Position numbers and translations under genes: made by a program | In this document: in pieces, positions 2,578 to 11,625 of the stretch | Layout: each line of letters starts with the position of its first letter | Position numbering within the stretch: position 1 is the first letter of the stretch | Notes under the pieces: model-generated | The model's input: only the letters and a program-made list of their open reading frames with translations | What the model was told of the DNA's origin: nothing | Database searches by the model: none | Origin: Clostridia bacterium | GTDB taxonomy: Bacteria > Bacillota > Clostridia > Christensenellales > Aristaeellaceae | DNA: 63,678 bases | Direction: 5' to 3' | NCBI GenBank assembly: GCA_017526525.1 | Contig: JAFXRG010000050.1 | Span: forward strand, 1 to 63,678

Positions 2578-2676
2578 TTCTTATCACCCTGTACCATTGT
2601 GATGAAAGAGCCTGTTTTTGTCAAGAAGGGCGTGAGAAAGTGGCAGTTATTCCTCCGCATGAGGATGAAAAAAAAG

Positions 2677-2755
2677 CCCCGGAACGCTTTATCTTCAACG
2701 TTCCGGGGTTGTGGGATTAGTAGGACTCGAACCTATGACCCCCACGATGTCAACG
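2677..2755. repeat. attL: left copy of the tRNA-Val 3' repeat
   Basis: This 79-bp stretch matches 11517-11595 with a single difference (2693 C against 11533 T); the last 62 bases are identical. It contains the terminator hairpin and the tRNA 3' half from the anticodon stem to the discriminator base, but the next bases (gcata) do not continue the tRNA. It is therefore the displaced original 3' end left at the far side of the integrated element and encodes no complete tRNA. Confidence 0.92.
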
Positions 2756-2868
2756 GCATAGGTGTTTTTCTCTGTTTTTTGTGGTTTTTCTCCGTTCCTT
2801 TATTTTCAACGGTTTCAGGCTTTTTCTTTTTCCTTCTTTTTCTGCCTTTTTTTGTTTTTTTCTAATTT

Positions 2869-2888
2869 TGTTAGACATATGTTAGACA
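2869..2888 (+). repeat. Left pair of integrase arm-type sites (TGTTAGACA x2)
   Basis: Two identical TGTTAGACA motifs start at 2869 and 2880, exactly 11 bp apart, about one helical turn. The same pair geometry recurs at the right end (11448/11459). Short direct repeats inside both ends of an element, near the att core, are the usual arm-binding sites for the N-terminal domain of lambda-type tyrosine integrases. The assignment is inferred from position and repetition. Confidence 0.7.
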
Positions 2889-2973
2889 TGAAACAATCAT
2901 TTTGAACGGATGACCCCCAAGTTTTTCATACAAAACGCGGAGGAATTATATTCAATCCTCCGCGTGTTCACAA

Positions 2974-3333
2974 TCATTTTGTAGGAAACTGAATGATATT
3001 ATTTAACTCAAGACTTCTTTCCTCTATCTGGTTAAATATCTTCAATGCTTCAGATATAGGCAATCCGTTTTTTATTTCCTTCTCATCCGGCCTTTTATCC
3101 CACACAATACATTTTTCAGAAATCAATAGATTATCAATATCTTTTGTTTCATACATTTCTTTTGTTGCGTACCCAATACATCCGCCGAATCCGGGAACAG
3201 TTATAAGCATCGGATAAACCTTGTAATATGGAATATCGTAATCAAGAGTATCATGTTCTTCAATCCAGACAACAGCACCCAACGGAAGAGATTCTATTTC
3301 TTTCAAAGTCAGTTTTACCGCTTTATCATGCAT
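2974..3333 (-). CDS. Hypothetical element protein downstream of integrase
   Basis: This is a 119-residue protein starting MHDKAVKLTLKEIESLPLG. The start at 3333 is chosen over a much earlier ATG that would overlap the integrase gene, because GAGGAAG lies a few bases upstream. The middle is rich in aromatic residues (HDTLDYDIPYYKVYP) and no catalytic motif is recognised. It lies 25 bases after the integrase stop, is probably co-transcribed with it, and is the last gene before attL. The function is unknown. Confidence 0.65.
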   Translation of the reverse strand: MHDKAVKLTLKEIESLPLGAVVWIEEHDTLDYDIPYYKVYPMLITVPGFGGCIGYATKEMYETKDIDNLLISEKCIVWDKRPDEKEIKNGLPISEALKIFNQIEERSLELNNIIQFPTK

Positions 3334-3358
3334 TTCAGATTCTTCCTCTTGATTGACT

Positions 3359-4696
3359 TTATTTGAAGATTGCTTCAAGTGTTTCAGATGCAATTCTGTC
3401 ATTCTCTGGCAGCGCATGACCATAAATGTCAAGGGTGACAGATGCTTTACTGTGTCCAAGCCTTTTTGATACAGTTTCAATATCTGTATTCTTTCCGAGG
3501 AGCAATGTTGCCCCTGTATGCCGTAGATCATGCAGCCGGATATATGGAAGCTTCATTTCTTCCTTTTCACAAGTCGAATTATACATATCAATAATTTCAT
3601 GGAACTTGTGACCAGGCGTAGACAGATGCAGCGGTTTTCCGATTTCCTTATCCTGAATGAAGATAGTATTCTGTTCAAAAGTATCCTCAATTTTTCCGGC
3701 CTTGTTTATAGTGTTTCTGTGACCCTTCCAAGCTGTCCCCAGCTTAAGGCAAAGAGCAATCTGTTCTTTCTTCCATTGCTTCAGAAGTGTAATCAATGAT
3801 GCCGGAATATAGATATCACGAATCCCGGCTTTTGTTTTCGGATCCTTTATATATTGTCCGTCTGCTTTTGTCATGGCTAAAGCTTTAGTAATGCTGATAA
3901 TGCCTTTATCAAAATCAATATCATCCCAAGTCAAAGCGCACATTTCACCGCGCCTCATGGTTGTATGTATGGCCATTGTAAAATACACTTGCCACATCAA
4001 ATCAATTTTCTTTTTAACCTTGTATCCTTTAATTGTATATTTTTCTCCGGTTTTCTTATTCTTTCTGTGACGTTCTCCGAATGTAATTTCGTATTCCATA
4101 GTCAAAGCATCATTCATAAACCTTTTTGCCTGATCTTCATTAAAGAAACTCAAATCTTCCCCGGTTCTCATTTCCACCGGAGGAAGATCATCACACCGGA
4201 GGCAAGGATTCTCCCGGACATACTGTTTTTTTACCGCGTACCGGAACACGCTATTGATAACTGTAAAAGTCATCCGTACTGTCTTAGGTGCTTTTTCTTC
4301 TTCCTGTTCCTTTTTGATTATTTTATCAATATGTGTTGCCCGGATATTAGTCAATTTCATAAAGCCAATTTCCGGAATGACGCGGATCCGCAGCACATCT
4401 TTATAATTTTCCCTGACTCCGGGAGTTTTTGCCGGAAGCCAATTCTCTTCCCAGATCTTCACAAATTCAGCGAATGTGATTTTATCTCCGGAAACAATAT
4501 CCCCATTCTTTACCTTGTTTTCAAAGTCAATAGCGAAAGCCTGAACTTCCTTTTCTGCTTTTGTAGGTGCCTTTGATGTAGGTGTAAAGGTTGCATATTT
4601 GAAAATTTGTTTTCCTTCAGCTGTCCGGCCTAATGAAACAGAAATCACGTAGCTAACTGTTCCGTCCTTCTGTGGTCTGGGTTTAATACTGGCCAT
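3359..4696 (-). CDS. Tyrosine recombinase / phage integrase
   Basis: The 445-residue protein would catalyse site-specific integration and excision at the tRNA-Val att site. The N-terminal part (about 1-60, with KPRPQKDGTVSYVISVSLGR) resembles an AP2-like arm-binding domain and is followed by a SAM-like core-binding domain (about 70-170). The catalytic domain shows arginine in TTMRRGEMCALTWDD, the box II HDLRHTGATLL, a conserved histidine in KRLGHSKASVT and the nucleophilic tyrosine in LDIYGHAL. Its ATG overlaps the repressor stop by one base (TAATG), implying coupled translation. It is longer than average because of an insert of about 40 residues before the first catalytic arginine. Confidence 0.95.
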   Translation of the reverse strand: MASIKPRPQKDGTVSYVISVSLGRTAEGKQIFKYATFTPTSKAPTKAEKEVQAFAIDFENKVKNGDIVSGDKITFAEFVKIWEENWLPAKTPGVRENYKDVLRIRVIPEIGFMKLTNIRATHIDKIIKKEQEEEKAPKTVRMTFTVINSVFRYAVKKQYVRENPCLRCDDLPPVEMRTGEDLSFFNEDQAKRFMNDALTMEYEITFGERHRKNKKTGEKYTIKGYKVKKKIDLMWQVYFTMAIHTTMRRGEMCALTWDDIDFDKGIISITKALAMTKADGQYIKDPKTKAGIRDIYIPASLITLLKQWKKEQIALCLKLGTAWKGHRNTINKAGKIEDTFEQNTIFIQDKEIGKPLHLSTPGHKFHEIIDMYNSTCEKEEMKLPYIRLHDLRHTGATLLLGKNTDIETVSKRLGHSKASVTLDIYGHALPENDRIASETLEAIFK

Positions 4697-5511
4697 TATT
4701 TATCACTCCCATCATTTTTTATATCTGAAAAATTGTATTTCTTTCTTTCTTGTTCCGTATAAATACCAAGCTTGTCAATTTTCTGTAATTCCTCATCTGA
4801 AAGGATATATTCATACCAATTTTCTACACCTACACTTTTTAAATCTGGCTGCATTTCAGCTTGCTTCAGATTTGCATCTGCTTCAGCTTTTTCAAATTCC
4901 TTCGTTAACTTTTCAAACAAAGCAGAGGCATATTTGGCTATTGATCCCTGAATCAGCTTAATAGTTTTCAAATCAAAGGGGGTTAGAAAAATTGTTTTTC
5001 CATCCCTTGTTATTTGAAACAGGCTTTCCCCATCTGGTATTTTTTGCGTTTTAGCCGGAACAGATCTTTCATAAAACTTATGATTAGAATCTTCAATTCC
5101 GTAGTAATGCAGCGGAGAATACTTAGGATATTTTTCTTCAAAATCCGGCATGATATTTCGTAATCCCTGAAAGAATGTTAAGTCAATCTTGAAATCCTCA
5201 ATTGCTCTTCTTTCAAGATCGCCTTCGACCTTCTTTGCATAATCAACAGAGTAACGGTATTTGTCATTCCTTGATTGAGGATCAAATTCAGAAGCATTTA
5301 CGCCCAGAACAGTACAGATTGCTTGTAAAAGATGCGGACGAGGAGCATATACACCATTCACCAACCGCGAAACATACGTTTTGTTTATTCCCGAATCTGG
5401 CAGTATTTTCTTTATTTCGTCTGCAAATTGCTGCTGAGATTTTCCTTTTATTGCCCATTTGCTTTGATACAGGACTCTAAATCTTTGAATGATGTATTCC
5501 CGGTTTTTCAC
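4696..5511 (-). CDS. XRE-family helix-turn-helix repressor of the element
   Basis: The 271-residue protein begins at a GTG with AAGGAGG nine bases upstream. Residues about 20-75 form a lambda-repressor-like helix-turn-helix: SQQQFADEI, NKTYVSRLVNGVYAPRP, LLQAICTVLGV. The C-terminal 190 residues are charged and partly helical, with no recognised peptidase motif, so RecA-stimulated self-cleavage is not evident. It is divergent from the cro-like operon and translationally coupled to the integrase, the classic layout for a lysogeny switch. By position it should repress the rightward operon and its own promoter. Confidence 0.85.
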   Translation of the reverse strand: MKNREYIIQRFRVLYQSKWAIKGKSQQQFADEIKKILPDSGINKTYVSRLVNGVYAPRPHLLQAICTVLGVNASEFDPQSRNDKYRYSVDYAKKVEGDLERRAIEDFKIDLTFFQGLRNIMPDFEEKYPKYSPLHYYGIEDSNHKFYERSVPAKTQKIPDGESLFQITRDGKTIFLTPFDLKTIKLIQGSIAKYASALFEKLTKEFEKAEADANLKQAEMQPDLKSVGVENWYEYILSDEELQKIDKLGIYTEQERKKYNFSDIKNDGSDK

Positions 5512-5629
5512 AATTCTATCCCTCCTTGCAAGTTGTCGTTTGATGTTGCTTTTTATTCGGCAACTTCCTTTATGTAGTTTAATGCGTTATCCTGAGATTG
5601 TCAATAACAACAAGAAGGAAGTGAAAGAT
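5512..5629. promoter_or_regulatory. Divergent control region between repressor and cro-like gene
   Basis: This 118-bp AT-rich gap separates two divergent regulators and must hold both promoters. Symmetric half-sites are visible: CAAGTTGTCG against CGGCAACTTC, and GTTGC against GCAAC around TTTTTATTCG. A further TTGTC box lies nearer the rightward gene. These are plausible operators for the two helix-turn-helix proteins. No -35/-10 pair is clear enough to assign. Confidence 0.5.
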
Positions 5630-5821
5630 ATGGCGAATCAAAAAATTAGGGATCAATTGCAAAAGGCTAAACTTCATCAATGGCAGTTAGCGGATGCTCT
5701 GGGTGTTCATGAAGCGGTTCTTTGTCGGAAACTCCGTCATGAACTCTCGACAGATGAAACGGAAAAAATCATCGGTGTTATCAAACGAGTATCGGAGGAG
5801 AAGCAAAATGGACAACATTGA
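5630..5821 (+). CDS. Small helix-turn-helix regulator, cro-like
   Basis: The 63-residue protein has LHQWQLADALGVHEAVLCRKLR, a helix-turn-helix whose recognition helix is VHEAVLCRKLR. Its position as first gene of the rightward operon, divergent from the repressor, matches a Cro-type regulator that would favour induction. An AAGGAAG site lies about nine bases before the ATG. The 3' end overlaps the next gene by 14 bases. Confidence 0.7.
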   Translation: MANQKIRDQLQKAKLHQWQLADALGVHEAVLCRKLRHELSTDETEKIIGVIKRVSEEKQNGQH

Positions 5822-6011
5822 TTCTATCCCGATCATGATCGGCCTCAAGGAAGCCAGCCAGCGCACCGGCCTGTCATACGACAGCCTTCGAAAGCTCTGC
5901 CTCTGCGGTCAGATTGTTCATATCAGGGCCGGGACGAAGTATTACGTCAATTTTTCCCGGTTGATCGAATTTCTCAATTCAGCCGGTATCATGGGGGATA
6001 AGAAAAAATGA
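5808..6011 (+). CDS. Excisionase-like helix-turn-helix protein
   Basis: The 67-residue product reads GLKEASQRTGLSYDSLRKLC, then a wing-like IVHIRAGTKYYVNFSRLIEFL. This is the MerR/excisionase-type winged helix (HTH_17 pattern) common in temperate phages and islands. It could direct the integrase toward excision or act as a second regulator. GGAGG is placed nine bases before the ATG at 5808, and the gene ends with an ATGA overlap with the next, so the operon is tightly coupled. Confidence 0.72.
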   Translation: MDNIDSIPIMIGLKEASQRTGLSYDSLRKLCLCGQIVHIRAGTKYYVNFSRLIEFLNSAGIMGDKKK

Positions 6012-6592
6012 TCGACGGGAAGCCGGAGTGGTTCAGGCTTAGCGGTGCAGCACTTGCAGATGTCATTTTGTTTGATAATGCTGGGAAATTAGCCTTCATT
6101 GAGGCTGTTTGCCAAATGTATGACCATGCGCTGGATCCGGATTATAGACCGGATTCCGGCGAAGGATTTGTCGGCAGAGCAATCGACCGGCAATTTGATT
6201 GCTTCAAAAACGGGATCGATAGCTATATGAGGCTTGTAAATGCTAACCCCAGCGGTAGGCCAAAGGGTACCCAAAGGGTTGACAATGCCGACCCGAAGAG
6301 AAGAGAACAAACGAAGAAAGAGATTGAAGAAGAAATCGAAAACGAAACGAAACAAGAACTGATTCGATCCGGTTTCAATGATAACGAAATTTCCGATGCC
6401 CTGAAAACTATATCAAGCTGGGACGGAATCGAAAATCGTGTTGGTTATCTGATCCAGATCATGAGGAATCAACGAATACAAAAGAAGAAGAACCTGGCTC
6501 AACGGTACTCGCAACGGAATTATTCCGGCGAGGACGATGACGCCATGTCCCGGATGCTGGCCGATATGTCCCGAATGGAGGAAAAAAAATGA
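6008..6592 (+). CDS. DUF6291-like phage protein, possibly replication-linked
   Basis: The 194-residue protein has an N-terminal half that resembles DUF6291 phage proteins: LAFIEAVCQMYDHALDPDY, then GFVGRAIDRQFDCFKNGIDSY and a basic GRPKG tail. These proteins are often found near phage replication genes. A charged linker (KKEIEEEIENETKQE) follows, then a second helical part ending in MSRMEEKK. It occupies the slot where related elements carry a replication gene, but no helicase, primase or initiator motif is visible. The assignment rests on pattern memory and is moderate. Confidence 0.55.
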   Translation: MIDGKPEWFRLSGAALADVILFDNAGKLAFIEAVCQMYDHALDPDYRPDSGEGFVGRAIDRQFDCFKNGIDSYMRLVNANPSGRPKGTQRVDNADPKRREQTKKEIEEEIENETKQELIRSGFNDNEISDALKTISSWDGIENRVGYLIQIMRNQRIQKKKNLAQRYSQRNYSGEDDDAMSRMLADMSRMEEKK

Positions 6593-6705
6593 CACGTCCT
6601 GTTTTCCGAAACACGTTTCTTCCCTATCTCATCCATCCCGGCTTTTCACCTCCACTTGAATTCTTTTACCGGAAACCGAATCGAAATAAAATCAAAGGAG
6701 ATTGA
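6589..6705 (+). CDS. Small hypothetical protein (38 aa)
   Basis: The short frame starts with ATG overlapping the previous stop (ATGA) and has GGAGG eight bases upstream, so it is placed to be translated. The peptide MTRPVFRNTFLPYLIHPGFS continues with an aromatic and basic tail. No family is recognised. The next gene starts three bases after its stop, which keeps the operon spacing continuous only if this frame is used. Confidence 0.45.
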   Translation: MTRPVFRNTFLPYLIHPGFSPPLEFFYRKPNRNKIKGD

Positions 6706-6708
6706 ATC

Positions 6709-7089
6709 ATGGAACAGAGCATTGATAAAAGAGTTGGATCTTCTATTCAGGGATTTTTAAAGGATGCAATTGAATATCAGAAACAAAATATCCGGTATCT
6801 GGGTATGAACCGGGAAATCATCTGCAAAACAAGCATTTGTGACTATGGCAAGCGCGGAAAGAATAGGAAAACAGATAATATCCTCTTCAAAAACGAGAAT
6901 GGCTATTTCTTTGAAAGGGACGGGAAAATCGTTTGTTCTGGTGAAACCCGCGCTGAATGTGTAAAGAGGGCCTTTTCTGCCGGGTACCTGTCGGATGATG
7001 ATTATATCCTTTTCCGCGCCGGACACAAAGCAATGACACAGTATGTGACTCAAAAACAGAATGAAGCAAAATTGAGGAGGCGTTTGTAA
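6709..7089 (+). CDS. Hypothetical element protein (126 aa)
   Basis: A 126-residue soluble, charged protein with a GYFFERDGKIVCSGETRAECVKR-like central segment and a basic C-terminus (KLRRRL). No catalytic motif or family is recognised. AAAGGAG lies nine bases upstream of the ATG. The stop overlaps the next start by one base (TAATG), so it is an internal gene of the rightward operon. Confidence 0.7.
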   Translation: MEQSIDKRVGSSIQGFLKDAIEYQKQNIRYLGMNREIICKTSICDYGKRGKNRKTDNILFKNENGYFFERDGKIVCSGETRAECVKRAFSAGYLSDDDYILFRAGHKAMTQYVTQKQNEAKLRRRL

Positions 7090-7619
7090 TGATTGATCCC
7101 GGAAAAAATATCTTTGCTGCCACAAGGGAACTCGGAGAGAGTCTTATCAAAAAAGAAAAAATGGAGCAGATCAAAGATACCTCAATCGAATTGGATATCA
7201 AAAGCGCGGAGGAACGTTTAAAAGATGCTGCCCTGAACGAAAACGAAGAAGAATACATAAGGACAAAGGAAGAAATCCGTGTTCTGAAAAACCGGGCAGA
7301 AATGTTCAGGATCCGGAAGGAAAACAAACGAACCATTATCACAGATGAACAGATCCGGGATATCTTTGCTCCTGTAGAGGCTGCGACAGAAACGGAAAAC
7401 AAGCGCCTTTTAAAAGAACTTGCAGATGCTCTTGAAAGAGTTGATGAAATCTGCAAAGCTGGCCGGGTAAATATTGATCGGTACAATTCCCTTGTAATGT
7501 TCTGGGAAAGTCATGTACTTCATAGAACCGAATTTTTATACCGGCCAAAGCTGGGTACAGATTTCGGAATGAATCATTCCTTCAAGATCAATCTGTTACG
7601 GGAGAAAGCAAATGGATGA
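7089..7619 (+). CDS. Hypothetical coiled-coil protein
   Basis: The 176-residue protein is dominated by charged heptad-like helices from about 20 to 125 (KSAEERLKDAALNENEEEY, EIRVLKNRAEMFRIRKENK, NKRLLKELADALERVDEI), predicting a coiled coil. The C-terminal 40 residues are more globular and aromatic. There is no enzyme signature. It is coupled to the gene before by TAATG and overlaps the following small gene by eight bases. A structural or DNA-binding accessory role in the element is possible but not shown. Confidence 0.7.
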   Translation: MIDPGKNIFAATRELGESLIKKEKMEQIKDTSIELDIKSAEERLKDAALNENEEEYIRTKEEIRVLKNRAEMFRIRKENKRTIITDEQIRDIFAPVEAATETENKRLLKELADALERVDEICKAGRVNIDRYNSLVMFWESHVLHRTEFLYRPKLGTDFGMNHSFKINLLREKANG

Positions 7620-7761
7620 TTTTTATAATGATTTGCGGTTGCTTGCGGATGATGTTGAAATTGCTGCCGGATCCGTAAAGGATGATGATGTTTCCTGTTC
7701 CCTTGACTATATTGCTTCCAGAATAAGGAATATTGCGGATGCATTGGAGGCAGAAGAATAA
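7612..7761 (+). CDS. Small acidic hypothetical protein (49 aa)
   Basis: The 49-residue product is very acidic (MDDFYNDLRLLADDVEIAAG at the start, ALEAEE at the end). The start overlaps the preceding gene by eight bases and has GGAG about eight bases upstream; the next gene starts three bases after the stop. Small acidic proteins in phage-like elements sometimes act as DNA mimics or inhibitors, but nothing here proves that. Confidence 0.55.
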   Translation: MDDFYNDLRLLADDVEIAAGSVKDDDVSCSLDYIASRIRNIADALEAEE

Positions 7762-7764
7762 AGC

Positions 7765-8481
7765 ATGGATAAAATCCCTTCAATTTATGAATTAATGGGA
7801 CTCAATCCAGAAGATGCACCACAAAGCAAAAGTAAGTCAAAGGAACCGGATCCGGAAGATCCAACCTATGAAATTGTCAAAGTGAAGAAAACTATGACAA
7901 TTCACCGGGCCAGAAGGATTAATTCAGAATGTGCTTTAGAACAATCGCTTCCCTGGCACTTTGAAGCCGGTGTTACCTATCATTGTATCTCTTGTGGAGA
8001 TGTTGACAGTTTAACCTATTTCCGCGTGATCCTGAAGCAACAGAAAGTCAGATATGCAATCATATCGACTTGGTGCATGGCTTTAGAAGATATCAAAGAG
8101 ATAGGAAGCTGGCTTGATTCCGGATATATTGACCGCATAGATTTCTTTTGTGGTGAAATATTCCGAGGAACCTATACGAAAGAATACAATGAACTCAAAG
8201 CATTGTGCCGGAAGCATGGCTGCAAAATGTCAATCTTCAGAAACCATTCTAAAGTTATGGTTATTTATGGGGAAAGATTCAATGCAGTAATTGAATCAAG
8301 CGCAAACGTAAACACAAATCCGCGAACGGAACAAACGGCCATCACCCTAAATGACGAGTTGTGCAATTTCTATCTTGATTTCTTCAATGGAATCAAATCT
8401 TTTGAAAGGGAGTTTGATAATGTCAAAGCGTGGAACCCAACCAAGTCAAAGCCAGCTAAAAGAACCAAGAATAAAAGCTGA
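7765..8481 (+). CDS. Phospholipase-D-like (single HxK) element protein
   Basis: The 238-residue protein has a C-terminal PLD-like module. A strand leads to FRNHSKVMVIYGE near residue 160, where His-x-Lys matches the HKD core without the usual aspartate spacing, followed by IESSANVNTNPRTEQTAI, the typical Ser-Ala-Asn continuation. Only one such motif exists, so an active enzyme would have to dimerise, as in Nuc-type nucleases. The N-terminal 40 residues are disordered and charged. The gene overlaps the terminase-like gene by 62 bases. Similar proteins are found in phage genomes near packaging genes; substrate unknown. Confidence 0.65.
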   Translation: MDKIPSIYELMGLNPEDAPQSKSKSKEPDPEDPTYEIVKVKKTMTIHRARRINSECALEQSLPWHFEAGVTYHCISCGDVDSLTYFRVILKQQKVRYAIISTWCMALEDIKEIGSWLDSGYIDRIDFFCGEIFRGTYTKEYNELKALCRKHGCKMSIFRNHSKVMVIYGERFNAVIESSANVNTNPRTEQTAITLNDELCNFYLDFFNGIKSFEREFDNVKAWNPTKSKPAKRTKNKS

Positions 8482-8806
8482 ACTTGACCGCTTAAATGAT
8501 CTTTTCTCTTCCTCTCAAGGCATAGATCAGAACAAGCTTGATTTCATTCAAAGACAGATAGAACAACTTGCATGGTATAACGTTTCAATCGCTGACCTTC
8601 AGAAGAAGATTGATCAATGGGGTACCTTAATCACGTATGACAATGGAGGAGGCCAATCCGGAGTAAAAACAAATCCGGACCTGAAAACCCTGATTGATTA
8701 TCAGAAAGCAGCCACAGCGATTGTAAAAACCCTGATGCCCTTTGTTCCGGTAAAAAGTAACCGGCACAAAAGCGAACTTGATCAATTTCGCATCGTAAAT
8801 CTTTAA
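8420..8806 (+). CDS. Phage terminase small subunit, P27-like
   Basis: The 128-residue protein begins MSKRGTQPSQSQLKEPRIKAEL, has a helix pair (KLDFIQRQIEQLAWYNVSIA), then YDNGGGQSGVKTNPDLKTL and a closing helix ending MPFVPVK. The order (helices, a G-rich turn, a K-x-NP-x-L-K motif, a last helix) is that of P27-type small terminases, which recognise the packaging site and hand DNA to the large subunit. No large terminase gene is in the element. The ATG at 8420 is chosen because AAAGGGAG precedes it; earlier in-frame ATGs lie inside the PLD-like gene. Confidence 0.62.
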   Translation: MSKRGTQPSQSQLKEPRIKAELDRLNDLFSSSQGIDQNKLDFIQRQIEQLAWYNVSIADLQKKIDQWGTLITYDNGGGQSGVKTNPDLKTLIDYQKAATAIVKTLMPFVPVKSNRHKSELDQFRIVNL

Positions 8807-8821
8807 TCCGGAGGCCATTAG

Positions 8822-9205
8822 ATGAACTCAAAGCAGAAGGGAACCAGAGGAGAACACGAAATAGAATCAATTCTGCTCAGATATGGTTTCTATGCTCACA
8901 GAAATGATCAGATCTTTAAGGGAGGCAAGAATAATCCTGATGTTTTTGCCTCCCTTTCCGGAAAATCATTTCATGTTGAAGTGAAACGAGTAGAAAAGCT
9001 GAACATATCTGCAGCAATGGCACAGGCAAGCCGGGACGCTGGCCCTAATGCGATGCCGGTTGTCGCGCATCGAAAAAACCGCGAATCATGGTTAATTACT
9101 ATCCCATTGATTGAACTTCTGGAATTGTTGAAAGAAAGGAAGCTGATACCAGATGAAAGAGAAGCATCCGGAAGAGAAACAGAATCCGGACAAAGCGCCG
9201 GATAA
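8822..9205 (+). CDS. PD-(D/E)XK nuclease, Holliday-junction-resolvase-like
   Basis: The 127-residue protein opens NSKQKGTRGEHEIESILLRYGF, the N-terminal helix with a conserved glutamate seen in archaeal Hjc-type resolvases. It continues with NNPDVFA and HVEVKRVEK, which supply the D...E-x-K metal-binding triad. A Q-containing helix (AAMAQASRDAG) and a core strand (MPVVAHRKN, SWLITI) complete the fold. It likely cuts branched DNA made during element replication or packaging. GGAGG stands seven bases before the ATG. Confidence 0.75.
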   Translation: MNSKQKGTRGEHEIESILLRYGFYAHRNDQIFKGGKNNPDVFASLSGKSFHVEVKRVEKLNISAAMAQASRDAGPNAMPVVAHRKNRESWLITIPLIELLELLKERKLIPDEREASGRETESGQSAG

Positions 9206-9311
9206 CGATAGCCGGCAGCGGAAAAGAGTCAAACTGAATCCGCGAATTGTCTTTAATGATCCTGACAGTTTTTTTAAAGATTTGCTGATGGAGCAACAGG
9301 AACAGCACTAA
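9153..9311 (+). CDS. Small hypothetical protein (52 aa)
   Basis: The frame overlaps the nuclease gene by 53 bases and encodes a highly charged peptide ending NPRIVFNDPDSFFKDLLMEQ. An AAAGGAAG site lies about ten bases upstream. The C-terminal sequence looks ordered and amphipathic, while the overlap part is lysine and glutamate rich. The next gene starts 23 bases later with its own site. It may be real because it fills an otherwise empty stretch of the operon; no function is apparent. Confidence 0.45.
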   Translation: MKEKHPEEKQNPDKAPDNDSRQRKRVKLNPRIVFNDPDSFFKDLLMEQQEQH

Positions 9312-9334
9312 GACAAAAGGAGATTTTGCAAACT

Positions 9335-10105
9335 ATGACAGAACAGGAATACAGATCCGCGCCGGGAATAAATAAATCCACATTGTGGAACATCCATAAA
9401 TCCCCGGCACATTATCAATACTGTCTGACTCATGTTCAGGAAGATACTCAATCATATAAGTTTGGTCGGGCGTTTCATTCTGCCATTCTTACACCGACCG
9501 CATTTAAAAATGATTTTATTGTTCTGCCGGATTCTATTGATAGACGGACAAAAGCCGGAAAAGAAGAATATGCAGCTTTCCTTGAATCTGCTCAAGGAAA
9601 AGAAATCATCACATCCCAGGATTACAATACCATCCGGAGCATGGTAAAAGCTTTCAGGAAAAACCGGGATGCCGTTGATCTTCTGAAAGGCACAAAACGC
9701 GAAAAGCCTATCTTCTGGACAGATAATAATGATCTTCTGTGTAAATGCCGGGTTGATGCATATAAAAACGGAGTCATGATAGATCTGAAAACCGCAGCGG
9801 ATGCCGGGACGGATACTTTCACAAGGGAAGCTTTGCGGTATGGGTATCACGTTCAGGCAGCACATTATATTGACGGATATTATCATACTGTATCAAGGAA
9901 AACCCCTGAATGGTATTTCATAGTCATTGAGAAAACAGAACCCTTTGCAGTAAATATTCTGAAAGCTGATATGGGTTTTCTGGATTATGGTTTTCTGATT
10001 CGGGACAAGCTTCTTTCAATCCTGATGAATTGTCAAAAGACAGGAAGTTTTCCCGGATACGGAATCAATGATTTGTGTCTGCCGGGATATATCGCGGAGG
10101 AATAA
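9335..10105 (+). CDS. RecE-like exonuclease (DUF3799, PD-(D/E)XK)
   Basis: The 256-residue protein opens TEQEYRSAPGINKSTLWNIH and has KFGRAFHSAILTP, MIDLKTAADAG (the D-x-K metal site near residue 150) and GYHVQAAHYIDGYY, the closing Q...Y motif. These are the conserved blocks of the phage exodeoxyribonuclease VIII-like family, which degrades one strand at a double-strand end for annealing recombination. ATG at 9335 is preferred over a TTG three codons earlier because AAAGGAG stands about twelve bases from it and only three from the TTG. No RecT annealing protein follows. Confidence 0.8.
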   Translation: MTEQEYRSAPGINKSTLWNIHKSPAHYQYCLTHVQEDTQSYKFGRAFHSAILTPTAFKNDFIVLPDSIDRRTKAGKEEYAAFLESAQGKEIITSQDYNTIRSMVKAFRKNRDAVDLLKGTKREKPIFWTDNNDLLCKCRVDAYKNGVMIDLKTAADAGTDTFTREALRYGYHVQAAHYIDGYYHTVSRKTPEWYFIVIEKTEPFAVNILKADMGFLDYGFLIRDKLLSILMNCQKTGSFPGYGINDLCLPGYIAEE

Positions 10106-10109
10106 GAAA

Positions 10110-10589
10110 ATGCATTGGAAAAAGCTCTTCAATCCTAATTATCTGGGAGCATACGCGTTTGAAACAGGAGAAGAAAAGCCGGTTACGATTTCAAGCATTA
10201 AGGAAGAGGAAGTTACAAGTACAGAAGGCAAAAAGGAAAACTGCCTTGTTTGTACCTTCAAAGAACCGGAGAAACCTTTGATTCTGAATAAGACAAACTG
10301 CAAAACAATAGAAAAGTTATACAATGAACCGGATATAGATCAATGGCCGGGAAAAGGAATTATTCTGTATGTTGCTAAAGTCAAAGCGTTTGGGGAATTA
10401 ACAGATGCAGTTAGGATCAGATCTGTAAAACCTTTTCTGTGTTCAGCTTGCGGAGGAATCATAACCGGATGTAAAAACAAAACCCATGCTGAAATATATG
10501 AACTGACCCGGAAGAAATATGGTAAGGCACTTTGCCCAGCTTGTGCAACAAAAGCAGCGCAAAAGGAAGAAAAGAAGGATACTCATTAA
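10110..10589 (+). CDS. Phage protein with OB-like domain and zinc ribbon
   Basis: The 159-residue product has an N-terminal domain starting HWKKLFNPNYLGAYAFE and ending GIILYVAKVKAFGELTDAVR, a pattern I know from uncharacterised phage recombination or replication cassettes and which looks like an OB fold. The C-terminus has FLCSACGGII and ALCPACATK, two CxxC knuckles that could bind zinc. It directly follows the exonuclease and may be a single-strand-binding or annealing partner standing in for RecT; that role is inference. GGAGG precedes the ATG by eight bases. It is the last gene of the operon. Confidence 0.65.
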   Translation: MHWKKLFNPNYLGAYAFETGEEKPVTISSIKEEEVTSTEGKKENCLVCTFKEPEKPLILNKTNCKTIEKLYNEPDIDQWPGKGIILYVAKVKAFGELTDAVRIRSVKPFLCSACGGIITGCKNKTHAEIYELTRKKYGKALCPACATKAAQKEEKKDTH

Positions 10590-10745
10590 TAGAGCATGAC
10601 AACCGCCGGAGGCAAATACATTTCAGGATGCATTAACGAATAAGAATACTTCATTATTGATTTTCAATGCATTCCCAATACACAAGTAAACGTTGTAGAT
10701 GCGTTGAAACGTTCTTTCTTCTGGGACGAATCAACATATTTATTA

Positions 10746-10780
10746 AGCTTCTGCAAAATGCAGACGCTTTTTTCTTTTTT
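10746..10780 (+). terminator. Rho-independent terminator of the element operon
   Basis: A nine-pair stem with one mismatch (AGCTTCTGC / GCAGACGCT, loop AAAAT) is followed by TTTTTTC and another T run. It lies about 155 bases after the last operon gene and faces rightward. Confidence 0.7.
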
Positions 10781-10781
10781 G

Positions 10782-10804
10782 AAATTTCCACCTGATGGAA
10801 ATTT
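10782..10804. repeat. Perfect 9-bp inverted repeat AAATTTCCA...TGGAAATTT
   Basis: The arms are identical complements around a five-base centre (CCTGA). It lies immediately after the terminator T-run, in gene-free DNA. It could be an operator or a replication/packaging protein site; the function is unknown. Confidence 0.55.
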
Positions 10805-11384
10805 GAACCGCTGGAAACAGAAGAAGAAAAGAAAGATAGATTGCCTTGTTCGTTAGAAGTTTAGCCAGGAACGCACGAACGGAAATCAAGTAAGGGAATC
10901 CCTTTGTTTTTAACGTTTGCGCGGTTTTCTGTCCTGAAAAAAATTGAAATAATCAAGAAAGTATTCTTCTTTGCTTTATCCAGATACCGGCGGGCCTCCC
11001 AGATCCCCCCCTATATGTTCTTTTTTTCGTAAATGGCACAGGGCTTAGTGTTACCTCGCATAAGCGCGCCGTAATGAAAATATTTACCGGTGGTTCTGGC
11101 GGTACTTTTCAGCCTTGCTACCATGAAAAAGAATTGCGGACTTTTAAGGACATAGGCACATTTTAGTAAAAGATCCGAGGACTTTTGTTCCCAGAAAAAA
11201 AGTTTTACAGACTTCTGCCTTTTTCAATGGTACATTTTTTCTTTTGCTCAAATACGCTTGCACAGTTGCAAGTTTGTTGCAAGATTGTAATCAAAAAACA
11301 ACAAGAATACAAAAAGAAATGCTCTACAGCTGCCAACACATACCTTGAACAGCGAAAAAGCTGATGCATTTTCAAATATTTTAT

Positions 11385-11467
11385 TGTTGGACATGAAGTG
11401 TTTTTTTGTTAGACAGAACATCTCAAAGGAACAACAGTATTATTTTTTGTTGGACATATGTTAGACA
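11385..11467 (+). repeat. Right integrase arm-type sites (four TGTTRGACA copies)
   Basis: Copies start at 11385 (TGTTGGACA), 11407 (TGTTAGACA), 11448 (TGTTGGACA) and 11459 (TGTTAGACA). Spacings are 22, 41 and 11 bp, all near whole helical turns. All have the same orientation as the left pair. Two sites on the left and four on the right give the unequal arm layout of lambda-type integration systems. Confidence 0.7.
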
Positions 11468-11510
11468 CGAACTTGTTTTTCCCATATCTGGCACATACTG
11501 AAGAAGCAAA

Positions 11511-11548
11511 GAAAAACCCCGGAACGCTTTATTTTCAACGTTCCGGGG
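11511..11548 (-). terminator. Terminator of tRNA-Val
   Basis: On the minus strand the perfect ten-pair stem CCCCGGAACG / CGTTCCGGGG with a 12-base loop is followed by TTTTTC just downstream of the tRNA. The hairpin is carried within the att repeat. Confidence 0.85.
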
Positions 11549-11595
11549 TTGTGGGATTAGTAGGACTCGAACCTATGACCCCCACGATGTCAACG
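11517..11595. repeat. attR: right copy of the tRNA-Val 3' repeat
   Basis: This copy of the 79-bp repeat restores both the tRNA-Val 3' half and its terminator, so integration leaves a working tRNA. The repeat ends inside the 5' strand of the anticodon stem, so the strand exchange probably occurred in or near the anticodon loop. Confidence 0.92.
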
Positions 11596-11625
11596 TGGTG
11601 CTCTAACCAACTGAGCTATAATCCC
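11552..11625 (-). tRNA. tRNA-Val (anticodon GAC)
   Basis: The minus strand folds as a 74-nt cloverleaf: acceptor GGGATTA/TAATCCC, D-arm with AGCTCAGTTGGTTAGAGC, anticodon stem CCACG/CGTGG with loop TTGACAT (anticodon GAC), and T-arm with GGTTCGAGTCC. Discriminator A is at 11552 and the CCA tail is not encoded. Its 3' half is the integration target of the element. Confidence 0.95.

Follow-up and report, generated by a model that had tools for sequence, protein, structure and literature searches.

We identified a probable helper-dependent phage satellite at positions 2668-11595 of a 63,678-nucleotide contig of a Clostridia bacterium (JAFXRG010000050.1, assembly GCA_017526525.1). We call this whole stretch the window, and the genome that carries it, which is 64% complete, G000. 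From its sequence, we put the probability that the element is a satellite at about 0.8. This reading is supported by a reduced gene layout common to related elements, by intact genes with conserved proteins, by a small terminase subunit (TerS) of a kind found adjoining large terminase subunits (TerL), and by the lack of any match to a relaxase family. An earlier annotation of the bare sequence (the original prediction) had proposed an AT-rich, satellite-like island in a tRNA-Val gene.

The position and composition of the island were borne out. It spans 8928 bp, with a GC content of 0.402 versus 0.595 in the remaining window, and ends in an 88-nt direct repeat (97% identical, spacing 8840). The repeat spans the 3' part of a tRNA-Val (gac) gene, the integration target (11551-11625, minus strand, called by ARAGORN), and the hairpin behind it. 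One attachment (att) site, attR (11508-11595), lies partly within the tRNA gene, and attL (2668-2755) is a copy of its 3' half and hairpin.

We scanned 20 open reading frames (ORFs) of the window, 15 gene candidates and five small ORFs, against Pfam and PHROGs. The predicted divergent switch stood for its integrase, repressor and Cro-like parts. The minus strand encodes a tyrosine integrase (3359-4696; PF00589, 3.8e-18; phrog_1, 1.5e-63) and a helix-turn-helix (HTH) protein that is probably the master repressor (4696-5511; PF01381, 2e-7). On the plus strand are a Cro-like HTH protein (5630-5821; phrog_17740, a family of unknown function, 2.3e-7; relatives at 37-44%) and an excisionase-like (Xis) HTH protein (5808-6011). 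The Xis call is weak, with a PF12728 match below the cut-off (4.8e-4), and is aided by relatives in two sister elements (52% in G020 and 62% in G017).

The plus strand also encodes a nuclease of the phospholipase D (PLD) superfamily (7765-8481; phrog_16945, 1.6e-11), TerS (8420-8806; phrog_5110, "terminase small subunit", 6.2e-7; phrog_1066, of unknown function, 8.8e-13), a PD-(D/E)XK nuclease resembling Holliday resolvases (8822-9205; PF24608, 1.9e-6, just above the cut-off; phrog_244, 1.7e-17), and a RecE-like exonuclease with a TTG start (9326-10105; PF12684, 2.7e-33; phrog_412, 3.3e-66). All four had been recognised in the original prediction. Two of its other labels failed. The gene in the position of a replication initiator (6008-6592, plus strand), placed there by position alone, had been called DUF6291-like; it did not match PF19808, its BLAST comparison with the DUF6291 protein of a sister element was not significant, and no relative was found among 50,697 phage records. 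The supposed OB-like protein encoded after recE (10068-10589, plus strand) matched only a family of unknown function (phrog_21613, 2.7e-24) and has relatives in 28 phage records. Among all families matched at E ≤ 1 by the 20 ORFs there was no TerL, portal, capsid, tail, lysis or relaxase family, as anticipated for the structural, large-terminase and lysis genes.

Sister elements in the genus

Six related elements, that of the window included, occur in one genus (genomes G000, G012, G020, G023, G044 and G017). A search for relatives at the same site found tRNA-Val elements in G020 and G017 besides the window; the integrases of G044 and G023 lie beside tRNA-Leu and tRNA-Trp, respectively, and the G012 element is broken off by a contig end. 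Two sister elements measure 11.8 and 13.2 kb by att span. One of the sister elements stems from goat reticulum. The G017 element resembles that of the window in its integrase (65%), Xis (62%), RecE (70%) and PD-(D/E)XK nuclease (62%), and we found no TerS or PLD in it. TerS and a small protein, g13, are present in five of the six elements, and the PLD gene directly precedes TerS in four.

Other parts of the sisters vary. A sigma-factor-like gene with a conserved C-terminal end directly follows g13 in four of the six elements (PF04542, 9.6e-10, in the one tested), a related gene stands at another place in G017, and none was found in the window element. All five TerS-bearing elements encode a coiled-coil-looking protein before PLD or TerS, hardly alignable between elements. 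The replication-type families of the tested sisters were DUF927 (G044), DUF3987 (G023), and DUF6291 with an IstB-type ATPase (G017).

The window PLD protein is 72-79% identical to those of three sister elements. Its TerS is 47-57% identical to sister TerS, and 40% to that of G020, whose element is without PLD. Comparisons of PLD/TerS-type genes gave proportions of synonymous differences near saturation (pS 0.77-0.93) with nonsynonymous ones of 0.17-0.35 (pN), hence the encoded proteins are under constraint. The dN/dS ratio was computable for two of 11 pairs (0.10 for the integrase, 0.44 for xis), the other nine being saturated at synonymous sites.

A prophage that lost its late genes but kept its early region and TerS might leave a similar island, and relatives of its integrase, repressor, RecE and TerS do occur in phages. 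We consider this unlikely. No structural fragments were matched among the window ORFs, which are intact and encode conserved proteins, and the reduced plan recurs in five sisters; tRNA-Val is the site of three elements, that of the window included, and others adjoin tRNA-Leu and tRNA-Trp. The integrase clade was found in three of the 45 genus genomes (E ≤ 1e-100), every time inside such an element, and in no locus that we read did such an integrase-recE-TerS backbone run on into genes for TerL, portal and capsid. The preference of the original prediction for a satellite over a decayed prophage is supported by these sisters and by the intact, conserved genes. An integrative mobilizable element moved by conjugation is less probable still: size and tRNA site would fit, but the 20 ORFs matched no relaxase or coupling family at E ≤ 1 (oriT was not searched), TerS and phage-type regulators do not fit, and PLD had no match in 72,556 plasmids.

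Structural genes of the sisters were sought mostly by eye and BLAST; each profile library was searched with 10 proteins, of which two in the PHROG set belonged to prophages. In the stretches read of the five relatives, that of G012 being cut short by the contig end, we recognised no gene for TerL, portal or capsid, and thus no longer relative of the kind that would have counted against the original prediction. Four of these relatives have one or two genes that are, or look, structural. The G023 and G017 elements encode a prohead protease (PF04586, 7.3e-45 and 6.8e-29, respectively), and the G012 element a tape measure protein of 685 residues (phrog_1533, 1.6e-19); its identity to the 747-residue counterpart in the prophage of G002 is 48% across 461 residues, and to that of G019 36%. 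The G012 protein (L021, 4401-6458) is 62 residues shorter than that of G002, and two aligned blocks suggest one internal gap. The small protein beside it is 60% (G019) and 50% (G002) identical to those of same-place genes and had no convincing family match of its own. In G020, a 113-residue protein without a family match is 38% identical to the first 112 residues of a 901-residue G002 prophage protein, and resembles a fibre N-terminus.

Small terminase, PLD nuclease and candidate helpers

The PLD and TerS genes overlap by 62 nt in the window and by 62-80 nt in the four elements that pair them. This coupling, and the C-terminal tail of TerS described below, were absent from the original prediction. 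The TerS motif YDNGGGQ.G was found in all eight chosen rows; variants of it are YNNGGGQ in G044 and YQNGREQ in G020. In PLD, HSK and SSANVNTNPR were invariant in four aligned rows, and we take the HxK...N-type motif of the window protein to be the PLD signature. The structural model of TerS (mean confidence, pLDDT, 76.4) is helical, save for a single hairpin spanning the YDNGGGQ motif, and with low confidence it places a helix at the C-terminal tail. That of PLD (pLDDT 63.5) gave one Foldseek match at E ≤ 0.001 among 1010. Its top ranks, which are weak, include NucT, BfiI, PssA, phospholipase D, polyphosphate kinase (PPK) and F13, presumably all PLD-type proteins, but also aminotransferases. 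A sequence search of solved structures gave no relevant match for either protein.

Relatives of both proteins are rare. A TerS search of 150 relatives found seven genomes, and a five-row TerS profile matched 10 of the 308 family genomes. Five of these 10 matches are the satellite-like elements of one genus (G000, G012, G020, G023 and G044); G158, G208 and G069 have TerS followed by a TerL-type gene, and the remaining two are G209 and G355. The PLD profile matched six of the 308 family genomes (four satellite-like elements and two prophage-type loci) and four of the 391 class genomes (G000 and three prophage-type loci).

In phage nd12, G158, G208, G094, G069 and L001, the TerS relative immediately precedes a TerL-type ORF, so named because it resembles genus TerLs that match PF03354. 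In IMG/VR, 11 loci had a TerS relative, of which seven were opened. In the class, a PLD relative is present in five prophage-type loci (G719, G642, G313, G291 and G700), and in each it directly precedes a TerS-position gene and TerL (TerS was profile-tested in one, phrog_83); in G719 a stop codon lies inside the PLD match. The PLD gene comes directly after the portal gene in Bacteroides phage BT-TP2, and after that of a portal-position protein 58% like the BT-TP2 portal in IMG/VR contig L028. PLD relatives occur in 55 phage records, two of which were opened for context; in the one Arthrobacter phage opened, PLD stands among replication-type genes. Hence, from its places before TerS-TerL or after the portal, PLD is packaging-linked in most contexts opened, the Arthrobacter phage being an exception. 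The idea that PLD simply replaces an HNH nuclease was weakened, because HNH occurs close upstream in three of the five prophage-type loci, G313, G719 (by motif) and G642 (by eye).

The tail of TerS suggests a helper. TerLs matching PF03354 were found in 10 of the 45 genus genomes, with no match in G000, G012, G023 and G044. When compared with the TerLs that accompany a satellite-type TerS, those from G002, G024 and G019, and one from G033, show 46-53% identity to the best match. The window TerS ends in ELDQFRIVNL and the gene before TerL in DLD[QA]FRL in G002, G024 and G019, whose prophages are of the HNH-TerS-TerL type, and in EISQFRAGL in G033. Among 4751 non-redundant ORFs of at least 60 amino acids, drawn from the window and from collected loci of at least 3500 bases, a terminal LD.FR[LI] occurred in four: the window TerS and three genus-prophage genes just before TerL. 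The window and prophage TerS are otherwise only about 22-23% identical where BLAST aligns them. A shared tail on different TerS bodies would fit a docking segment for a common TerL, and suggests a helper phage of the HNH-TerS-TerL type.

We propose the following cycle. A growing helper phage, resident or infecting, would relieve the repressor, and Int and Xis would excise the element. It would then replicate, with RecE and the PD-(D/E)XK nuclease helping to make or resolve concatemers. The body of the satellite TerS may bind the satellite's own packaging site while its tail (LDxFR[LI]), copying that of the helper TerS, docks on the helper TerL, and the helper motor would then load satellite DNA into helper shells. 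PLD, whose reading frame overlaps that of TerS, may join TerS at the packaging site as its nuclease. The helper would supply the HNH nuclease, which is missing in the element and is encoded before TerS in the likely helpers (HNH-TerS-TerL phages, such as the prophages of G002, G024 and G019). More tentatively, and at somewhat less than even odds, the six elements form one satellite lineage that swaps helper parts singly, most carrying a single virion part or packaging factor (TerS, with a helper-copied tail in the window; prohead protease; tape measure and chaperone; fibre N-terminus), with PLD as the packaging-site nuclease paired with TerS.

Alternatively, the satellite might carry a copy of the helper's cos site and be packaged by the helper's own terminase, TerS and PLD then mainly interfering with helper packaging. 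Some SaPIs (Staphylococcus aureus pathogenicity islands) are described in the relevant parts of two reports as carrying the helper cos or pac in place of TerS (PMC6092414, PMC5052747), and a helper-like tail might equally make TerS a decoy. No cos-like sequence common to the elements was found in a weak search that did not include the cos sites of helpers, and we regard this mechanism as improbable.

Several observations weigh against a helper-dependent satellite, or against the mechanism proposed for it. No primase or helicase family was found among the 20 ORFs. No cos or pac site was found in the chosen non-coding stretches of the six elements. The tail motif was picked after being seen, in loci gathered around terminases, the TerS genes of the G002, G024 and G019 prophages were named by position only, and the other four satellite TerS are without an LD.FR[LI] tail; the other elements may therefore use other helpers. 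The G023 protease is 62% identical to that of prophage G313 and 51% to that of genus prophage G038, a different prophage type, and the G017 protease is at most 29% identical to any tested protease, thus close to none. The original prediction had suggested looking for a helper prophage in the same assembly. There, phrog_2 matched a single terminase locus, of another kind and with similar loci in G020, G023 and G044, and the helper may thus be of a different type; a G002-type helper was not found alongside the element in the 64% complete genome. Finally, pattern-based scans of IMG/VR gave no contig with the window integrase clade or the satellite TerS profile.

The phrog_2 match in G000 (contig C52, about 11.4-16.2 kb; L116) has a stop inside the matched stretch. 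A capsid-like ORF of this locus, named by eye, has 111 amino acids versus 322 in G044.

Remaining features of the island

Just inside its ends the island has a second repeat pair of 27 nt (93% identical, 2866-2892 near attL and 11445-11471 near attR). These look like integrase arm sites, the left one possibly also serving Xis. The AT-rich stretch at 10590-11507, in which profile searches of ORFs supported no genes, is a candidate for the origin of replication or for cos/pac; it had no motif in common with the non-coding stretches of relatives. Candidates for cos that we rejected were the window's own arm repeat, matches of 14-15 bp, and one 20-bp palindrome, apparently a terminator hairpin, common to two sister elements.

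At E ≤ 1e-8, a DNA search with the att/tRNA stretch matched 41 of the 45 genus genomes, a figure that includes weak matches to other tRNAs. In 29 att-matching loci besides the window, with flanks of up to 1.5 kb, the att stretch was the only DNA in common with the window element; two of these sites (G020 and G017) hold the sister elements. An attempt to find the empty site through the flanking phosphoglycerate mutase gene failed, as none of 29 scanned relative loci of that gene had a tRNA. Other islands with distant integrases occupy the same tRNA-Val in G010 (about 6 kb) and G040 (about 17 kb; L155/L158). By eye, neither looks like a prophage, and that of G040 carries restriction-type genes.

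A conserved protein of unknown function is encoded at 2974-3333 (minus strand), with relatives at 30-38% in the G044, G023 and G020 elements. Its ORF extends to 3531, but the G044 relative starts at Met67. It had no Pfam family and one chance-level PHROG match. On the plus strand, g7 (6709-7089) matched no family above chance. The next gene, g8 (7089-7619), encodes a coiled-coil-looking protein (by eye) that may be an assembly factor; it has a 27% relative in G044, aligns poorly with the proteins at its place in other TerS-bearing elements, and had no phage relative. PADLOC, run on 10 window proteins, gave only two weak matches (an HTH protein and g8), and we rejected the idea of a defence island. 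The small protein g9 (7612-7761) has small ORFs at its place in the G044 and G020 elements.

The g13 gene (9153-9311, plus strand), present in all five TerS-bearing elements, encodes a small protein with the motif NPR.V...D.F....MEQ.E. In the G017 element (L157, 8808-9188), the PD-(D/E)XK protein itself ends in the end motif of g13 (DPFLQDLIMEQAEQ); the window has g13 as a separate gene that overlaps the PD-(D/E)XK gene.

Comparison with known satellites

Gram-positive phage-inducible chromosomal islands (PICIs) are defined, in the part of PMC6092414 that sets out their features, by a divergent master repressor with int beside it and xis opposite, a replication module with primase and initiator followed by ori, absence of phage structural and lytic genes, a size of about 15 kb, att sites never used by prophages, and phage-dependent induction, interference and packaging in phage-like particles. 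As far as these islands and SaPIs are described there and in PMC5052747, the window element resembles them in the int and xis genes flanking divergent regulators (with xis weakly called), in TerS, loosely in its small size, and in lacking TerL and capsid. It differs in that no primase was found, in the PLD gene overlapping TerS, and in the RecE and resolvase-like cassette. Structural genes are absent from the window element but not from those of G017 and G023 (protease) and G012 (tape measure). The window element measures 8.9 kb, and two sisters 11.8 and 13.2 kb, beside the 15 kb or so given for PICIs. The PICI-like label of the original prediction thus fits the regulator layout and the lack of structural and lytic genes, and fails for the primase module. 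Since neither a primase nor DUF6291 was found, we do not file the element as a PICI, although it would work like one. In the integrase search, satellite phages of Streptococcus ranked first, at 28% identity.

This is not the first clostridial satellite, since a putative PICI with TerS is in print for Clostridium novyi sensu lato (PMC8473940). Going by the description in that report, it shares with the window element an integrase, a homologue of the SaPI-type repressor and a small terminase. It differs in lying in rnpB and in carrying Cas14a, CRISPR arrays and restriction genes; a minor capsid protein is also reported, and no PLD is named in that description.

The tape measure of the G012 element is not the first of its kind either. 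The relevant sections of PMC12987554 report, in 2026, a satellite tape measure and chimeric tails for the PLE (PICI-like element) of Vibrio cholerae, and putative tmp genes in other satellites. The G012 element likewise has its own tape measure and a neighbouring gene in the position of a chaperone; PLE has another host and other genes, and the window element is without a tail gene. Satellites that reuse head genes, as two sisters do with the protease, include cos SaPIs with Ccm (PMC5052747) and capsid-forming PICIs (PMC10690885). In the two sisters, unlike these islands as partly described there, we recognised a prohead protease only and no capsid protein, portal or TerL. The own capsid protein, portal and large terminase given for capsid-forming PICIs in PMC10690885 were not found in the window element.

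The PLD packaging modules of phages (G719, G642, G313, G291, G700 and BT-TP2) resemble the satellite in having PLD near TerS or the portal, and differ in that TerL and portal are present, with HNH in three of the five prophage-type loci. Our literature search on satellites with PLD and terminase found no report of PLD as a packaging-site nuclease paired with TerS. A human faecal contig (MT836267.1, L161, 1-11458) has a 124-nt terminal repeat and, by eye, integrase, Xre, PD-(D/E)XK-like, TerS-like and TerL-like ORFs; no capsid or portal was recognised by eye, and it is possibly another satellite type.

Satellites have been studied most thoroughly in cocci, enterics and vibrios. In this clostridial genus, a short TerS tail yields a concrete prediction of the helper, and the element points to a partner of small terminases, in phages as in satellites, that has gone unstudied: a PLD nuclease.

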